Below are positions 10,904-24,701 of a stretch of 27,034 bases of DNA, piece after piece (the stretch's first letter is position 1; each line of letters starts with the position of its first letter). The notes under the pieces are model-generated. The model ran no database searches. It was not told the origin of the DNA and saw nothing but the letters and a program-made list of their open reading frames with translations. A program made the translations under genes and the position numbers. The DNA lies in the IMG/VR virus record IMGVR_UViG_3300000385_000010, positions 13,027 through 40,060 of that record, one strand, 5' to 3'. The DNA is from a virus.

Positions 10904-11410
10904 ATGGTACAAAACATCAAACAAAATTATCTTTCACCGGTAGAGTTTCGATTTGTGATTAAGAGACTTCCGTTTGTCACATTCTTTACTCAGCGTGTAT
11001 CCTTACCTGGTGTTACGATTAATCCTGTAGAACAGAGTACACCATTTAAGAATCTATATTTCACTGGTGATAAGCTATTATATGATCAATTTACTGTAGA
11101 GTTTCGTATTAATGAGAATATGGATAACTATATGGAAATCTATAACTGGATGACAGGCCTAGCATTTCCTGAAAGCTTTGAACAGTTTGCTAATCTTGAC
11201 GATTCTCAGGATGGTCTTTATTCTGACGCATCATTACTTGTTATGAATAGTGGACGTAATCCAAATATTCTTTATAAGCTTAAAGACATTTTTCCGATTA
11301 ATCTCAGCAACGTTGATTTAGATACAACAGCAGCTGATATTGATTATGTGCCAGCAAATGTTACATTCCAAATTGGATCATATGATATTGAGGTGCTACC
11401 TTCAAGTTGA
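10904..11410 (+). CDS. Tail-tube-fold protein (gp19/gp54-like)
   Basis: This 168-residue protein has the pattern of the T4 tube-protein fold: an opening LSPVEFRFVIKRLPFVTFFTQ, the hairpin SLPGVTINPVEQSTPFKNLYF, then GDKLLYDQFTVEFRINENMDNYMEIYNWM. This parallels the gp19 arrangement in the same genome (LPTSNLG, then GDRTFDEWTVTILNDED, then AMEEWM). It is therefore probably a tube initiator, terminator or a minor tube ring rather than the main tube. In related marine phages a tail-completion gene (often labelled gene 3) sits here between 23 and uvsY, but I see no specific T4 gp3 signature, so no symbol is given. A late promoter drives it, consistent with a virion role. Confidence 0.75.
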   Translation: MVQNIKQNYLSPVEFRFVIKRLPFVTFFTQRVSLPGVTINPVEQSTPFKNLYFTGDKLLYDQFTVEFRINENMDNYMEIYNWMTGLAFPESFEQFANLDDSQDGLYSDASLLVMNSGRNPNILYKLKDIFPINLSNVDLDTTAADIDYVPANVTFQIGSYDIEVLPSS

Positions 11411-11435
11411 CATTTGATCTATTTTGTTATATAAT
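11407..11435 (+). promoter_or_regulatory. Consensus sigma70-type promoter for uvsY-uvsW
   Basis: TTGACA (11407-11412) and TATAAT (11430-11435) match consensus perfectly with the ideal 17-base spacer. It overlaps the stop of the preceding late gene and lies 30 bases before the uvsY ATG, whose leader holds GGAGG. It marks the switch from late structural genes to early recombination genes. A 7-base inverted repeat, TGATCTA (11415-11421) and TAGATCA (11459-11465), brackets the -10 box and the ribosome site. Confidence 0.9.
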
Positions 11436-11464
11436 TGTTTGACTGTGATATATGGAGGTAGATC

Positions 11465-11902
11465 ATGATTCTAGAAGATATTTACGCCGAGTGGGCAAAA
11501 GATGGTGAAATTGATGAGACTAACATTTCAGGTGAGTCGACTCGCATCCCGAAGCTTCATAATAAATACTTTCAATGGTATGTTAAAGAAGGCTTGAAGC
11601 TTAAGAAGTATAAAGCAGACTATAAGAAGCTTTATAAACTTAAAACAGAATATTACAAAGGCGAGCTCGATATTGAAGAGCTCAAAGAATATGGTTGGAA
11701 ACCACAACCACTTAAAATTCTACGACAAGATATTCCGACTTATCTCGAAGCAGATGAAGACATCATTAATATGAGTCTTAAGATTGGAATGCAAGAGGCA
11801 ATCGTAGAATATCTCGAATCAATTATTAGACAAATCAATAATCGAAACTTTTATCTTAAAAATATTGTAGATTGGGAAAGGTTTAGAACTGGAGCATTAT
11901 GA
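11465..11902 (+). CDS. uvsY: Recombination mediator UvsY
   Basis: The 145-residue protein (T4: 137) begins LEDIYAEWAKDGEIDETNI, as UvsY proteins do, and has the central Lys/Tyr-rich helix (YKADYKKLYKLKTEYYKGELD) seen in the family. UvsY loads the UvsX recombinase on single-stranded DNA covered by gp32, for recombination-dependent replication and repair. The gene follows a perfect consensus promoter with a GGAGG ribosome site and overlaps uvsW by four bases (ATGA). In T4 uvsW precedes uvsY; here the order is reversed, as in marine T4-like phages. Confidence 0.9.
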   Translation: MILEDIYAEWAKDGEIDETNISGESTRIPKLHNKYFQWYVKEGLKLKKYKADYKKLYKLKTEYYKGELDIEELKEYGWKPQPLKILRQDIPTYLEADEDIINMSLKIGMQEAIVEYLESIIRQINNRNFYLKNIVDWERFRTGAL

Positions 11903-13356
11903 GCGATAAGGTATATATTGAGAAGGTTGATGAGGTATATGTAAGGGTTCATGCTGATCCTGGCATTAAAATGGAGATGTCAGGATACTTTGAGTTTTAT
12001 GTACCTGGTTATAAGTTTATGCCTGCCTATCGCAATCGCGTATGGGATGGTAAGATACGACTTCTCAATACTATGACTGGATTAATTTATTCGGGTCTTG
12101 TTGGTTATATTGCTAAATTTTGTAAACAAAGGGATTATGAACTTGAATTAGATGGAGAATTAAAAAATGAAGAAACATATGATGACGAATATGGCTATGC
12201 TCTCGCCCGTGAATTTGACTCAGCGTTTGAACCAAGAGACTATCAAAACAGAGCAGTTGTCGAAGCCCTTCGAAAGCAACGAGGATTACTACTCAGTCCT
12301 ACCGCATCAGGTAAGTCGTTTATCATCTACCTCTTATCCAGATACCATGTGGAACACCAGCGACGAGTCCTCATTATCGTACCAACGACTTCGCTCGTAT
12401 CTCAAATGGCGTCAGACTTTTTAGAATATAATAAAGCTCGTAAGCTTGATATACACAAGATTCAAGGTGGTGTAGATAAAAACGTTGATGCAGACTATAC
12501 TATTTCTACATGGCAATCTCTATTTAAAATGCCAAAAAGTTACTTTGAAAAGTTTGATGCTGTAATTGTAGACGAAGCGCACCTTGCAAAGGCAAAGTCT
12601 ATCACAAAGATTCTTGAAAAGATGCCTGAAGCAAAGTATCGGTATGGTTTTACTGGCACGCTCGATGAATCACAGACACATGAGCTTGTTCTTACCGGTC
12701 TTTTTGGTCCAGTATATCAGGTAACTCAAACAAAAAAACTTATTGATGATAACACTCTTGCTGACTTTAAGATTAAGGCTATATCACTCCAATATCCTGA
12801 CGAGATGAGGAAGATAAATAAGAGTAAGAGCTACCAAGAAGAGATTGATTGGATTGTAAAGAATGAAGCAAGAAATAAGTTTATTCGGAACTTGGCTTGG
12901 TCTCTGCCAGGTAATACTCTCATTCTTTTTCAGTTTGTCGAAAAGCATGGTAAAATACTTGAACCAATGCTTCAAAAAGACGGAAAGACCGTCCACTTTA
13001 TACACGGTGGTGTTAAAGGAGATGATCGCGAAAACGTTCGTCATATTGCTGAGTCTACCAGTGATAACATTATTCTTGCTAGTTACGGGACTTTTTCTAC
13101 TGGAGTTAACATTAAACGTCTTGATAATATCATTTTTGCTTCTCCTAGTAAATCCAAAATTCGTAACTTACAATCAATTGGACGAGTATTAAGAAAAGGT
13201 AACGGTAAAGACAAAGCAGTACTTTATGATATTGTTGATGATCTACAATGGAAGAGTCATAAGAACTTCGCAGTTCGACATTTCATGGAGAGGGTTAAGA
13301 TATATAGTAATGAGCAGTTTGAATTCAAGATCTATAATGTCCAATTGAAAGGATAA
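11899..13356 (+). CDS. uvsW: DNA/RNA helicase UvsW
   Basis: This is a 485-residue superfamily 2 helicase (T4: 503). The N-terminal substrate-binding domain ends around residue 100 and includes FMPAYRNRVWDGKIRLLN. The helicase core shows motif Q-like EPRDYQNRAV (111-120), Walker A PTASGKS (134-140), DEAH box VDEAH (224-228), motif III GFTGTLDE and motif VI SIGRVLRKG. UvsW unwinds R-loops and branched recombination intermediates and in T4 switches replication from origin use to recombination-dependent mode. Translation is coupled to uvsY. Confidence 0.95.
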   Translation: MSDKVYIEKVDEVYVRVHADPGIKMEMSGYFEFYVPGYKFMPAYRNRVWDGKIRLLNTMTGLIYSGLVGYIAKFCKQRDYELELDGELKNEETYDDEYGYALAREFDSAFEPRDYQNRAVVEALRKQRGLLLSPTASGKSFIIYLLSRYHVEHQRRVLIIVPTTSLVSQMASDFLEYNKARKLDIHKIQGGVDKNVDADYTISTWQSLFKMPKSYFEKFDAVIVDEAHLAKAKSITKILEKMPEAKYRYGFTGTLDESQTHELVLTGLFGPVYQVTQTKKLIDDNTLADFKIKAISLQYPDEMRKINKSKSYQEEIDWIVKNEARNKFIRNLAWSLPGNTLILFQFVEKHGKILEPMLQKDGKTVHFIHGGVKGDDRENVRHIAESTSDNIILASYGTFSTGVNIKRLDNIIFASPSKSKIRNLQSIGRVLRKGNGKDKAVLYDIVDDLQWKSHKNFAVRHFMERVKIYSNEQFEFKIYNVQLKG

Positions 13357-15618: not shown

Positions 15619-17330
15619 GTGCATTACACTTCAAATACGTTGAATATAAAAACATTCTTTCTACAGGTAATCAATGGACTCGAATCGATCTCGATAAGAG
15701 TAAATCAACACTTGTAGTTGGTGAAAATGGTGCAGGCAAATCTACAATGCTTGATGCCATTTGTTTTGCCTTGTACGGTAAACCATTTCGTAAGATCAAT
15801 AAACCACAGTTGATGAACTCTATTAATCAAAAACATCTAAAGGTAAAAGTAGCCTTTAGCTCTGGTGGTAAAAACTACGAAATCGTTCGTGGTATGAAGC
15901 CAAATCTTTTTGAGATTTGGAGAGATGGTGAACTTTTAAATCAAGATGCTGCAGCAAGGGACTATCAAGCGTATCTTGAAGACAATATCTTAAAGATGAA
16001 TATGAAATCCTTTGGACAAATCGTAGTCCTTGGGTCTTCTACATTTGTGCCATTTATGCAACTTCCTGCTGGCCAACGCCGTGAAATTATCGAAGATCTT
16101 CTCGATATTCAAATTTTTACGACAATGAATGTTCTTCTTAAAGAAAAGGTATCTGATAATAAGTCCGAAATACAAGAACTCAAATATCATGTAGACCTTT
16201 TAAAAGATCGAATTCAGTCTGCAAAAGATCATAACGACTCTATTCGTACTATGAAAGAGGATGAAGTCAAAAGGATTAAAGAAAAAGTAAAAGAACATCT
16301 TGAATATATTGAGTCAGAGCAGTCAAAAATCGATGAAATCGAATCTCACATGGATGAGTTTGTAAAATCGATTCAAGACAAAGGTGATGTTAAGAAAAAG
16401 CTTTCAGAGATACAGGAAATCGACAATGAGCTCAAAACAAAATTCAATCGACTCTCAAAAGAAATCAAATTCTTCGAACAACATGACGACTGTCCAACAT
16501 GTAAGCAAGGAATCGAAGTTGAATTTAAGCAAGATACAGTTGATCAACACAAAAGTGAGATTAACAAAATCAAAAATGCAAGAGAGAAACTCGCATCTAA
16601 AGCTCTAGAAAAAGAAACAAGACTTATTGAGATTAGTGAAATTGAAGATGATATATCGAAGCTACATCTTCATGCATCTGAATGTAGAGCTAATATCAAA
16701 CTCACAAAGAATACTTTGGGCGGTATTAAAAAGGAATTGATGGAGGCTGAGAAGGAAGTCGAAGCAGTAGATACATCAAAGATCCAACAGCTCGAAAAAG
16801 ATCTTGTAGCATATCAAACAAAACAAGAACAGCTTTTAAATGATAAGGAAATTCTAAGTGTTCTTGGATCTATGCTCAAAGATGGTGGCATTAAAACTCG
16901 TATCATTAAGCAATATGTTCCGGTGATGAACAAACTGATCAATAAATATTTAGCGTCTATGGATTTCTTTGTAGACTTTCAACTTGATGAGGGATTTAAT
17001 GAAACAATTAAGAGCCGCTTTCGTGATGCTTTTTCTTATGCTTCGTTCTCCGAAGGTGAGAAGCTTCGCATCGATCTCGCGCTACTTTTTACCTGGCGCG
17101 CAGTCTCGAAACTCAGAAACTCGGTAAGTACTAACCTTTTAATTATGGACGAGATTATGGACTCGTCTCTAGATAATGCTGGCACTGAAGAGTTTTTGAA
17201 GATCATTAACGAGCTCACAGCAGATAGTAACATTTTTATTATTAGTCATAAAGGTGACCAGCTTTATGACAAGTTCGAGAATGTTATTAAATTTAAGAAA
17301 GTGAAAAACTTTAGTATGATGGAGGTATAA
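15615..17330 (+). CDS. 46: Recombination ATPase subunit gp46 (Rad50/SbcC family)
   Basis: The 571-residue protein (T4: 560) has an N-terminal ABC half with Walker A GENGAGKST (36-44), long coiled coils (about 175-290 and 300-410) meeting at a zinc hook CPTC (293-296), and a C-terminal half with ABC signature FSEGEK (around 479-483), Walker B LLIMDE (508-513) and a switch His in ISHK (545). It is the partner of gp47. ATP-driven dimerisation gates nuclease access to DNA ends, feeding recombination-dependent replication along with UvsY and UvsW. It overlaps gene 47 by four bases and the next gene by one. Confidence 0.97.
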   Translation: MSALHFKYVEYKNILSTGNQWTRIDLDKSKSTLVVGENGAGKSTMLDAICFALYGKPFRKINKPQLMNSINQKHLKVKVAFSSGGKNYEIVRGMKPNLFEIWRDGELLNQDAAARDYQAYLEDNILKMNMKSFGQIVVLGSSTFVPFMQLPAGQRREIIEDLLDIQIFTTMNVLLKEKVSDNKSEIQELKYHVDLLKDRIQSAKDHNDSIRTMKEDEVKRIKEKVKEHLEYIESEQSKIDEIESHMDEFVKSIQDKGDVKKKLSEIQEIDNELKTKFNRLSKEIKFFEQHDDCPTCKQGIEVEFKQDTVDQHKSEINKIKNAREKLASKALEKETRLIEISEIEDDISKLHLHASECRANIKLTKNTLGGIKKELMEAEKEVEAVDTSKIQQLEKDLVAYQTKQEQLLNDKEILSVLGSMLKDGGIKTRIIKQYVPVMNKLINKYLASMDFFVDFQLDEGFNETIKSRFRDAFSYASFSEGEKLRIDLALLFTWRAVSKLRNSVSTNLLIMDEIMDSSLDNAGTEEFLKIINELTADSNIFIISHKGDQLYDKFENVIKFKKVKNFSMMEV

Positions 17331-17749
17331 TGAAAGTAGGATTTACGTGTAGCACATTTGATCTACTTCACGCAGGCCATATAAGTATGCTTAGAGAATC
17401 AAAGCAACAATGTGACTATCTTATTGCTGGTCTTCAGGTTGATCCTTCAATTGATCGTCCTGAAAAGAACGCACCAGTTCAAACATTGGTCGAGAGGTAT
17501 ACACAGCTCGCCGCAGTAAAGTATGTTGATGAGATTATTTGTTATGTAACTGAAGAAGATTTAGTTGACATTCTTCAAATGTATGATATAAATGTAAGGA
17601 TACTCGGTGTAGAGTATAAAGACAAAGATTTTACTGGCAAAGATGTATGTCGTAAACGTGGCATTCAACTTTACTTCAACAAACGTGATCATCGCTTTTC
17701 AAGCAGTGGTCTTCGTAAATTAGTTCATGAAAGGGAAAATGAAAAATGA
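17330..17749 (+). CDS. Cytidylyltransferase-like nucleotidyltransferase
   Basis: The 139-residue protein is a HxGH-family nucleotidyltransferase close in size to glycerol-3-phosphate cytidylyltransferase (TagD). Visible motifs are the start KVGFTCSTFDLLHAGHISML with HAGH (15-18), the PEKNAPVQTLVERYTQLAAVKYVD segment (Arg and Val pattern typical of the CTP-binding face), and the C-terminal RFSSSGLRKLV replacing the usual RTxGISTT signature. It would couple CTP to a phosphorylated small molecule, giving a CDP-activated compound. The real substrate may be a sugar or polyol phosphate. It is joined to gene 46 by a one-base overlap and to the MazG-like gene by ATGA, so it travels with nucleotide metabolism genes. 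Confidence 0.8.
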   Translation: MKVGFTCSTFDLLHAGHISMLRESKQQCDYLIAGLQVDPSIDRPEKNAPVQTLVERYTQLAAVKYVDEIICYVTEEDLVDILQMYDINVRILGVEYKDKDFTGKDVCRKRGIQLYFNKRDHRFSSSGLRKLVHERENEK

Positions 17750-18165
17750 GTAATGACTGGGCTCAAGATATTAATGAAATGCACCAAAAGTTTGGTGTAC
17801 ATGAATGGTTCGAAAAGAACAAAGACAATAAAGAGTTGATGCGTAAGTATTTGAGCTTCCGTATTACTATGATGTATGAAGAACTTGGTGAGATTATCTC
17901 AGCAGCAAACGTGCAACAAAACTCTGAAGAAGTAGTAGACGGTCTTATCGATATTTGTGTCTTTGCTATTGGTACACTTGATGTGATGGGTGTTGATGCT
18001 CATAAAGCATGGGATGAAATTCTTCGGGCTAATATGAGTAAAGATGTTGGTGTTAAACCTGGCCGTCCAAACCCTTGGGGTATGCCTGATATGATTAAGC
18101 CTTCTGGATGGCAGCCACCTCGTCATGATGATAATCATGGTGATCTACCAAAAATTTTAGAATAA
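17746..18165 (+). CDS. MazG / phosphoribosyl-ATP pyrophosphohydrolase-like protein
   Basis: The 139-residue product has the all-alpha NTP pyrophosphohydrolase signature: YEELGEI (Glu45, Glu46, Glu49), then EEVVDGLIDICVF (Asp65, Asp69) and a third helix. It also has a Pro/Trp-rich tail (GRPNPWGMPDMIKPSGWQPP) common to phage members labelled phosphoribosyl-ATP pyrophosphohydrolase-like. It probably hydrolyses a nucleoside triphosphate to monophosphate, possibly cleaning the pool of an unwanted nucleotide. T4 uses gp56 for dCTP removal; no gp56 is visible here, so a dCTPase-like role is an attractive inference given the downstream dCMP hydroxymethylase. A promoter follows its stop. Confidence 0.8.
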   Translation: MSNDWAQDINEMHQKFGVHEWFEKNKDNKELMRKYLSFRITMMYEELGEIISAANVQQNSEEVVDGLIDICVFAIGTLDVMGVDAHKAWDEILRANMSKDVGVKPGRPNPWGMPDMIKPSGWQPPRHDDNHGDLPKILE

Positions 18166-18180
18166 AAACAAAAAAAGTAG

Positions 18181-18209
18181 TTGACATTCTCCATTGCTTG
18201 TGTTAGATT
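18181..18209 (+). promoter_or_regulatory. Promoter for the 18237 gene
   Basis: TTGACA (18181-18186), a 17-base spacer and TAGATT (18204-18209) with an extended -10 TG at 18201-18202. Transcription would start near 18216, within the loop or right arm of an 11-base inverted repeat. The leader ends with TGGAGACTATATC before the ATG. Confidence 0.75.
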
Positions 18210-18228
18210 AATAATATAAGCAATGGAG
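18189..18228 (+). repeat. Inverted repeat that can mask a ribosome site
   Basis: CTCCATTGCTT (18189-18199) and AAGCAATGGAG (18218-18228) are perfect 11-base complements separated by 18 bases. The right arm contains the GGAG ribosome site of the gene at 18237; the loop contains the -10 box. RNA started upstream would fold and hide the site, whereas RNA from the local promoter would lack the left arm. Confidence 0.8.
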
Positions 18229-18236
18229 ACTATATC

Positions 18237-18647
18237 ATGACTCAGTACACCTTCGACGAAAACATCGTTTCTGATCTTCATAAAGATGCTCGTGGTTGCC
18301 GTCCTAGCCAAGGCTGGATGGAGTTTTGGAATGAGATTTCCGATGATAGTAAACAAAAGGTTTGGGACAATCTCATCGAAGAACTTAATGAGACAATGGA
18401 TCGTGAGCGTAAAGCTCAAGCCGAAGCTCTTCTTAATTTGCAAGCCCGAATTTGTGAAACCCGTTCTCTTGGTGCTACGAGCGATAAAGAAGCTTTGAAG
18501 TGGATTATTGAAGCCGAAGAGTTTGACGAAACTGATCTTCAGTACGGTGCAGACTATTTTTGCTTTCACTTTGGTCTTAGCTATTCAGATAAAAATCTTT
18601 TTCCTATTCAGGAAGCAATTAATGAAATGTTGGCATTAGTTGAATAA
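18237..18647 (+). CDS. Unknown acidic protein with its own early promoter
   Basis: I do not recognise this 136-residue protein. It is acidic and largely helical (residues 35-75: DDSKQKVWDNLIEELNETMDRERK and on), with an aromatic patch YGADYFCFHFGLSYS (about 102-116). It contains no obvious enzyme motif, signal peptide or membrane span. It has a private consensus-like promoter, a leader nearly identical to that of the next gene, and an inverted repeat over its ribosome site. This resembles small early T4-type genes that act on the host soon after infection, but that is inference from regulation only. Confidence 0.8.
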   Translation: MTQYTFDENIVSDLHKDARGCRPSQGWMEFWNEISDDSKQKVWDNLIEELNETMDRERKAQAEALLNLQARICETRSLGATSDKEALKWIIEAEEFDETDLQYGADYFCFHFGLSYSDKNLFPIQEAINEMLALVE

Positions 18648-18672
18648 AGGGGTTGACATTGTCTTCCCCTTT
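18646..18672 (+). repeat. Inverted repeat around a promoter -35 box
   Basis: AAAGGGG (18646-18652) and CCCCTTT (18666-18672) pair perfectly with a 13-base loop that contains the TTGACA of the next promoter. The left arm overlaps the end of the upstream gene. It may be a weak terminator for upstream transcripts (the T tract is poor) or a protein site. Confidence 0.5.
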
Positions 18673-18681
18673 GTCTATAAT
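18653..18681 (+). promoter_or_regulatory. Perfect consensus promoter for the 18708 gene
   Basis: TTGACA (18653-18658), exactly 17 bases, then TATAAT (18676-18681). The leader CGGAGACTACATC precedes the ATG and differs by one base over the 12 bases GGAGACTAYATC shared with the 18237 gene. By consensus match this is among the strongest promoters in the window. Confidence 0.92.
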
Positions 18682-18707: not shown

Positions 18708-18953
18708 ATGACACAACGCACTGACGCTTATTACTTCACTGTTGACATGAAAGACGGCCATCCTATTGGTGAAGGCGCTACTGCAGTTCGCGTACTTCGT
18801 ACATATGTTAAAATGTGCAATGAAAAATACGGCGAAACAAACTACGTTAAGTTGCAAGGTCGTGGCCACCGTATGGGTAATCGCCGGTACAATCAGTCGC
18901 TTCCTTTGAAATATGCTACTACTGCTGACGTTTATGTTTACAATCGTCGCTAA
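18708..18953 (+). CDS. Unknown small basic protein with strong early promoter
   Basis: The 81-residue product (MTQRTDAYYFTVDMKDGHPIG start) is basic, with a Gly/Arg stretch LQGRGHRMGNRRYNQSLP (about 49-66) that could bind nucleic acid. It has no recognisable family motif. A perfect TTGACA-N17-TATAAT promoter and a GGAG ribosome site with 8-base spacing predict strong early expression. Both this and the preceding gene start MTQ after the same leader, which suggests duplication of a promoter-leader cassette. Function unknown. Confidence 0.8.
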   Translation: MTQRTDAYYFTVDMKDGHPIGEGATAVRVLRTYVKMCNEKYGETNYVKLQGRGHRMGNRRYNQSLPLKYATTADVYVYNRR

Positions 18954-23704: not shown

Positions 23705-24701
23705 TATTCTCGTAATAGGCGCTGGATTTTCTGGCGCCACAATTGCTCGTATGCTCGCTGACAATGGAAGAAATGTGCATGTGATTGATCGTCGTGATCA
23801 TGTTGCTGGTAATGCATATGACTATCTAGATGAAAACGGTATTCGAATTCACCAGTATGGCCCTCATCTTTTTCATACAAATAACCAGGAGGTAGTTGAC
23901 TTTCTTTCTCGTTTTACTGCGTGGCTTCCTTATAAGCATAAAGTAAAGGCTCAGCTTAAAGATGGCCGTTATGTCACTTTGCCTGTAAATCGCGAAACTA
24001 AAGAGATCGTTGGTGAAGAGAATGTTCTCGATATTTTCTTTAGGCCATACACTAAAAAAATGTGGGGTATGAGTCTTGACGAACTCAATCCTGATATTGT
24101 AAATCGAGTTCCTATTCGCGATGATGACAACGAGTATTATTTTCCGAATGATAACTTTCAAGCAATGCCATTTGGTGGATATACGCACCTTGTAGAGAAT
24201 ATGCTCGATCATCCGAATATTAAAGTGATGCTCGAGGTTCAATTCAAAAAGGATATGGAATCCCATTATAACCACGTATTCAACTCAATGCCAATTGATG
24301 TGTATCATGGTAAAAAGTATGGTGAACTGCCATACCGTTCTATTCGATTCCATAATGTGACGCTGCCAATGGCTAAAGTACTACCAACTACTACTGTTAA
24401 CTTCACTCATACCGGTCCTTATACAAGAGTTACTGAATGGAAAAATATTCCAGGACATGGCATTAACGAAAAAATGACTGTTCTTACATACGAAGAGCCA
24501 TGCGATTACCGCGATAATGATATGGAACGTTATTATCCAGTGAAAGATAAAGATGGTGTAAATCGTGATCTTTATGCTAAGTATCGTTCTATTCCTACTG
24601 AGAATACTACTTTCATTGGAAGATGTGGTCTTTATGCTTATTTGGATATGGACATGGCTATTAACTCGGCAATGAAAACAGCACTAAGGTTTATGACATG
24701 A
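23691..24701 (+). CDS. glf: UDP-galactopyranose mutase
   Basis: The 336-residue flavoprotein has the FAD-binding GAGFSG (10-15) and DRRDHVAGNAYD, the family hallmark HQYGPHLFHTNN (54-65), FFRPYTKKMWGMSLDEL, FGGYTHLVENML, YTRVTEWKNI with a conserved Arg, and the C-terminal FAD motif GRCGLYAYLDMDMAI. The enzyme uses reduced FAD to convert UDP-galactopyranose to UDP-galactofuranose; some members also convert UDP-arabinopyranose. It is shorter than E. coli Glf (367), chiefly in the mobile helical domain. It overlaps the transferase gene by 14 bases and the next gene by four. No envelope-polysaccharide genes surround it, so a DNA- or virion-sugar role is inferred. Confidence 0.93.
   Translation: MPENDILVIGAGFSGATIARMLADNGRNVHVIDRRDHVAGNAYDYLDENGIRIHQYGPHLFHTNNQEVVDFLSRFTAWLPYKHKVKAQLKDGRYVTLPVNRETKEIVGEENVLDIFFRPYTKKMWGMSLDELNPDIVNRVPIRDDDNEYYFPNDNFQAMPFGGYTHLVENMLDHPNIKVMLEVQFKKDMESHYNHVFNSMPIDVYHGKKYGELPYRSIRFHNVTLPMAKVLPTTTVNFTHTGPYTRVTEWKNIPGHGINEKMTVLTYEEPCDYRDNDMERYYPVKDKDGVNRDLYAKYRSIPTENTTFIGRCGLYAYLDMDMAINSAMKTALRFMT

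Follow-up and report, generated by a model that had tools for sequence, protein, structure and literature searches.

Can a hairpin around the promoter of an early phage gene keep that gene from being translated when transcripts run into it from upstream? The question is raised by a locus in the window, i.e., the whole stretch of 27,034 nucleotides analysed here (positions 13,027 to 40,060 of IMG/VR record IMGVR_UViG_3300000385_000010). At this locus an earlier note had described a promoter nested in an inverted repeat that would hide the ribosome-binding site (RBS) of the following gene, here called X, in read-through RNA. The note had likened it to T4 genes e, soc and 49, with their late promoters. 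The comparison is apt. The T4 cases "are all late genes" that lie within early or middle transcripts (PMC2988022). In T4 e, soc, 49, I-TevI/II/III and segB and in Aeh1 mobE, the promoter lies inside an RBS-hiding hairpin, within or just 3' of its left arm, so that local transcripts lack this arm, and the Shine-Dalgarno (SD) sequence and/or the AUG is hidden in longer transcripts (PMC3014915, PMC2988022). According to a review, the structure at T4 e lowers lysozyme synthesis 100-fold (PMC3014915).

Source phage and genes around X

The 40,060-base viral record that contains the window belongs to a T4-like myovirus. On the + strand it carries, in order, the T4-type sheath, tube, portal, capsid, uvsY, uvsW, gp55, 47 and 46 genes (named from ORF reading and phage matches), and the uvsY gene of the window is nearest, among named phages, to those of the Sinorhizobium phages phiN3, phiM7 and phiM12 (about 62%). 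Late-type promoters of the form TATAAATA are found upstream of the sheath (2913), scaffold (8451), capsid (9481) and gp3 (10868) genes. As these promoters precede structural genes, the source phage likely has a gp55-type (T4-type) late programme; no TATAAATA late promoter is present at 18181-18236.

Gene 46 is followed on its 3' side by a cytidylyltransferase gene, a MazG-like gene, gene X and gene Y, in that order (Table 1), and X and Y each have their own TTGACA-type promoter. No terminator-like site was found on the + strand from 16000 to 18181, and none stands between the MazG-like gene and X. The product of gene X has no match in Pfam, its only PHROG match is to a family of unknown function, and a search of the PDB gave no significant match; its best viral matches are uncharacterised proteins (E about 0.002).

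Table 1. Positions of the promoter, hairpin and neighbouring genes in the window
Feature	Position	Strand	Remarks
MazG-like pyrophosphohydrolase gene	17746..18165	+	upstream of X; possible read-through source
-35 hexamer TTGACA	18181..18186	+	conserved before X homologues
Perfect left arm TCTCCATTGCTT	18188..18199	+	within promoter spacer; anti-Shine-Dalgarno
Left-arm extension GTGTTA	18200..18205	+	G-U/A-U pairs; holds first two -10 bases
TG of extended -10 element	18201..18202	+	promoter sequence
-10 hexamer TAGATT	18204..18209	+	promoter sequence
Hairpin loop GAUUAA	18206..18211	+	RNA fold
Right arm	18212..18229	+	perfect part 18218-18229 = AAGCAATGGAGA
Predicted transcription start	18216	+	placed from -10 position, 7 nt past box
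Shine-Dalgarno GGAG	18225..18228	+	spacing to ATG 18237
Gene X	18237..18647	+	136 aa; phrog_21968 (unknown function); all-helical AlphaFold model
Gene Y promoter TTGACA-17-TATAAT	18653..18681	+	-35 in loop of stem AAAGGGG/CCCCTTT
Gene Y	18708-18953	+	3' of X, own promoter at 18653

Anatomy of the hairpin

The two sequences that had been described as a perfect 11-base inverted repeat, CTCCATTGCTT (18189-18199) and AAGCAATGGAG (18218-18228), are exact reverse complements, and with one further outside pair the perfect repeat is in fact 12 bp long (18188-18199/18218-18229). In RNA, G-U and A-U pairs prolong the stem to 18 unbroken pairs (18188-18205 with 18212-18229), leaving a 6-nt loop (-25.8 kcal/mol, z -7.9). 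The -10 box, which had been placed in the loop, is indeed flanked by the perfect arms, although the extended stem takes in its first two bases. By its sequence the promoter is of the sigma70 type, as had been proposed: TTGACA-17-TAGATT with a TG before the -10 box matches the consensus at 10/12 positions. Most of the 17-bp spacer is taken up by the left arm, and GGAG lies within the right arm, where it had been located. The right arm also contains the beginning of a five-codon frame (18223-18240, ATG GAG ACT ATA TCA TGA), the end of which overlaps the start codon of X (ATGA).

As the predicted start near 18216 lies beyond the end of the left arm (18205), the local mRNA would have a 21-nt leader without the left arm. 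Folding of the read-through and native leaders, a check proposed in the earlier note, gave the 18-pair stem with GGAG fully paired for the former versus no stable fold for the latter.

An inverted repeat on both sides of a -10 box could also be a DNA site for a repressor closing the early promoter. We consider this very improbable: the pairing continues via G-U pairs down to a 6-nt loop, which is relevant for RNA only, no exact or one-mismatch second copy of an arm was found elsewhere in the window, and the arms of a hairpin at the X homologue of another phage (G003, see below) are wholly different in sequence and position. Alternatively, as the hairpin begins 22 nt past the stop codon of the MazG-like gene (18165), it might protect or process the 3' end of the MazG-like mRNA, with its effect on X translation being incidental. 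This, too, seems improbable. The stem is not followed by a U-run (T-run in the DNA) and no terminator-like site was called at 18188-18236; none of the Rfam covariance models reached its gathering score at the hairpin, the only match being miRNA-shaped (19.7 versus 98 bits); and the position of the SD within the stem, together with the AUG in G003, would be left unexplained.

Predicted accessibility of the Shine-Dalgarno sequence

By computation, 2.1 kcal/mol suffices to open GGAG in the local transcript, whereas the read-through RNA requires 12.0 kcal/mol. T4 positive controls subjected to the identical calculation gave 9.8 (e), 11.3 (I-TevII) and 7.6 kcal/mol (the long form of 49), and the barrier in the window is therefore equal to or above those of e and I-TevII. 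T4 soc is missed by the SD-opening measure because its SD sits in a loop.

Comparison with other promoters of related phages

Nine related IMG/VR records and phiM12 were fetched, and any sigma70-like promoter followed by an SD, an ATG and an open frame was scored as a unit. This yielded 128 sigma70-type promoter-leader units in 12 related records; the test of the SD alone covered 123 promoters. In a swap test, promoters were exchanged between leaders (16,256 swapped pairs).

Perfect pairing of this length exceeds chance expectation: the 40-kb record holds two perfect repeats of at least 12 bp with loops of no more than 60 nt, whereas dinucleotide-chain shuffles give 0.25 on average. The longest perfectly complementary stretch shared by the leader and the non-transcribed part measures at most 9 nt in 126/128 promoters; the two exceptions, with 12 nt in the window and 13 nt in G003, both belong to X genes, and a 12-nt complement arose in only 2 of the 16,256 swapped pairs. 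With X genes accounting for 9/128 promoters, the chance that both outliers would be X genes is about 0.4% by simple counting.

The window promoter stands out less when only the opening energy is considered. Its SD-AUG barrier was equalled by 6/1000 shuffles of the non-transcribed part and, in the swap test, by 2/127 swapped promoters (rank p 0.023). Over the whole set, p-values for the SD alone were near uniform (7/123 at p<=0.05), and the SD-to-AUG test gave a modest excess in the tail (8/128 at p<=0.02, with about 2.6 expected). The scans of 123 and 128 promoters rejected the idea that an anti-SD spacer is a general feature of early promoters in these phages; the RBS-hiding hairpin is no general habit of their early promoters.

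Several other sites came up in these searches. A second perfect 12-bp inverted repeat, TAGGACAGCAAA, is present at 24741-24752/24778-24789 of the window, within the first codons of a gene starting at 24698, which, to judge from its PCAGLS motif, may encode a DNA cytosine methyltransferase. At the uvsY promoter (11407-11467), the spacer sequence TGATCTATTTT pairs with GGAGGTAGATCA of its own leader (GGAGG), and the same is seen in L018; this hairpin at 11407 is weak (p 0.13 for the SD alone; 32/1000 shuffles for SD-AUG), hence we make no claim for it. A leader-motif scan returned matches on unrelated genes.

Homologues of gene X

The X homologue of G003 (L139/L140), downstream of a gp32-like gene (identity read from the ORF), encodes a protein 62% identical to that of the window and has the promoter TTTACT-16-TATATT. 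Its arms, TACATGGGGGG and CCCCCCATGTA, flank the entire promoter and bury both the SD and the AUG; the read-through barrier is about 27-28.5 kcal/mol versus 4.2 for the native leader, a value reached by 0/1000 shuffles. Arm sequence, arm position and genomic context all differ from those in the window while the topology is equal, which suggests that this topology arose independently in G003. At a second G003 promoter (L140 462-530; G003:28819, - strand), GGGGGGG upstream of the -35 pairs with CACCCC beside the start codon (barrier 12.3 versus 3.5 native).

The anatomy and the predicted energetics favour the switch proposed in the earlier note, but 7/9 X homologues are without an RBS-hiding hairpin, although all seven keep the promoter; one of them (L145/G004) has an 8-bp stem around the -35 instead. 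The device is therefore lineage-specific and not essential to the regulation of X generally. In IMG/VR, no relative of the locus above 67% protein identity was found for covariation analysis, and no exact copy of the hairpin arms was found elsewhere. The leader ATAAGCAAYGGAGA is common to related phages, as exemplified by ATAAGCAACGGAGA in G004:32205. Since other promoters of the group have this leader too, the left arm is most plausibly the newer element, and we infer from these comparisons that an inverted copy of the leader was placed in the free 17-bp spacer.

Such a copy might have no function at all, having entered the spacer by template switching or by chance and being neutral, given that spacer sequence can vary freely. 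We regard this as a reading of lower but appreciable probability. It agrees with the facts that most X homologues manage without the hairpin, that conservation is seen in generic leaders but not in the spacer, and that the SD-only test is near uniform over 123 promoters. However, it does not account readily for a second hairpin, unrelated in sequence but alike in topology, at gene X of another phage, the two being the only outliers among 128, or for the leader of the window reading AATGG versus AACGG in most related leaders, with the left arm matching AATGG exactly.

A third RBS-hiding case was found in a cultured Sinorhizobium phage, phiM12, at SmphiM12_441 (start 174937), where the promoter (TTGACC-17-TATCTT), the SD and the start codon all lie within a fold of -39.6 kcal/mol (KF381361, 174868-174960). 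In this fold the -35 pairs with the start codon region and the -10 with the leader, the longest perfect match being just 8 nt. The barrier is 16.3 versus 1.4 native (1/1000 shuffles; swap-test rank 1/128). The region is 99-100% conserved in phiM7, phiM19 and phiN3, and such close relatives (>=99% identical) are therefore uninformative for covariation.

Stems around the -35

Stems of at least 8 bp whose loop holds the -35 and whose right arm falls within the spacer occur in 5/128 own pairs versus 24/16,256 swapped pairs. Promoters with the -35 in a loop are those at phiM12 36848, 98854 and 150044, G004:46638, G005:72693, G006:32994 and gene Y of the window. The three phiM12 stems, with T-runs behind them, resemble intrinsic terminators overlapping promoters; that at G006:32994 is shorter (6 bp by the same count) and has a T7 run, and gene Y (region 18645-18681) has a 7-bp version, a possible alternative insulating device.

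The stem-loops of the PeSL cassettes are terminators, and Arbiol 2010 and Comeau 2014 are said to deal with these cassettes. As far as they are characterised where PMC4503421 names them, PeSL cassettes are early promoter/stem-loop units of T4-like phages, and the -35-stem promoters resemble these promoter-terminator units. The locus of X, too, shares with them an early sigma70-type promoter and a stem-loop before small early genes; it differs from the units so named in that its stem has no T-run and covers the SD. The hairpin at X could be a former terminator stem-loop, now a remnant or a recombination point, since -35 stems are found at the neighbouring promoter (18653), at the G004 X homologue and at phiM12, G005 and G006 promoters, several with T-runs. 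However, the stem in the window encloses the -10 and not the -35, and it lacks a T-run, which makes such a descent most improbable.

It is a tentative idea, which we hold to be rather doubtful, that T4-like phages of alphaproteobacteria insulate their early promoter-gene modules from upstream transcription in two interchangeable ways, both overlapping the promoter itself: by a terminator around the -35 or by an RBS-hiding hairpin around the -10, with the X family using one or the other depending on the phage.

Discussion

Most likely, the hairpin provides translational insulation of early gene X against upstream read-through, although we hold this with only moderate confidence. The switch is backed by its anatomy, the predicted fold, the difference in accessibility and a hairpin with unrelated arms at a homologue. 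Host sigma70 RNA polymerase would initiate at about 18216, giving a 21-nt leader with the right arm only, in which GGAG and the AUG would be free for translation. RNA reading through from gene 46, the cytidylyltransferase gene or the MazG-like gene, or late transcripts from further upstream, would contain both arms, and 18 pairs over GGAG would block 30S binding, so that the X product would be made only while its own promoter fires. Expression of X that is "early only", as had been suggested, would be a reasonable consequence. We infer the transcription start, the amount and timing of read-through and the translational effect at X.

As in the T4 cases, the SD would be hidden in read-through RNA and the local transcript would lack the left arm, and the computed barriers are similar. 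In contrast, the T4 promoters are late, whereas that in the window, with TTGACA as its -35 and a spacer occupied by the left arm, is of the sigma70 type. As its promoter is not a late one, the locus is a variant rather than a member of the e/I-TevI switch.

In IS10 and IS50, a host sigma70 promoter lies near the element end, and transcripts that run in from outside mask the transposase initiation region by folding. The locus of X resembles these elements in using host-promoter logic against external transcripts; it differs in that theirs is the transposase of a mobile element and X is an early phage gene without an assigned function. Nothing at the X locus points to an insertion sequence.

What appears to be new here, judging from the sequence, is the known hidden-RBS logic of late genes on an early sigma70-type promoter. 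If this is true, the hidden-RBS promoter switch would not be confined to excluding late proteins from the early phase; an early gene would be turned off at the end of its own window in time, the later read-through mRNA being untranslatable; and regulatory code would be packed into the 17-bp spacer of the promoter, a stretch normally free of constraint. The phiM12 case presents the same idea in a cultured phage with a tractable host, open to direct testing.
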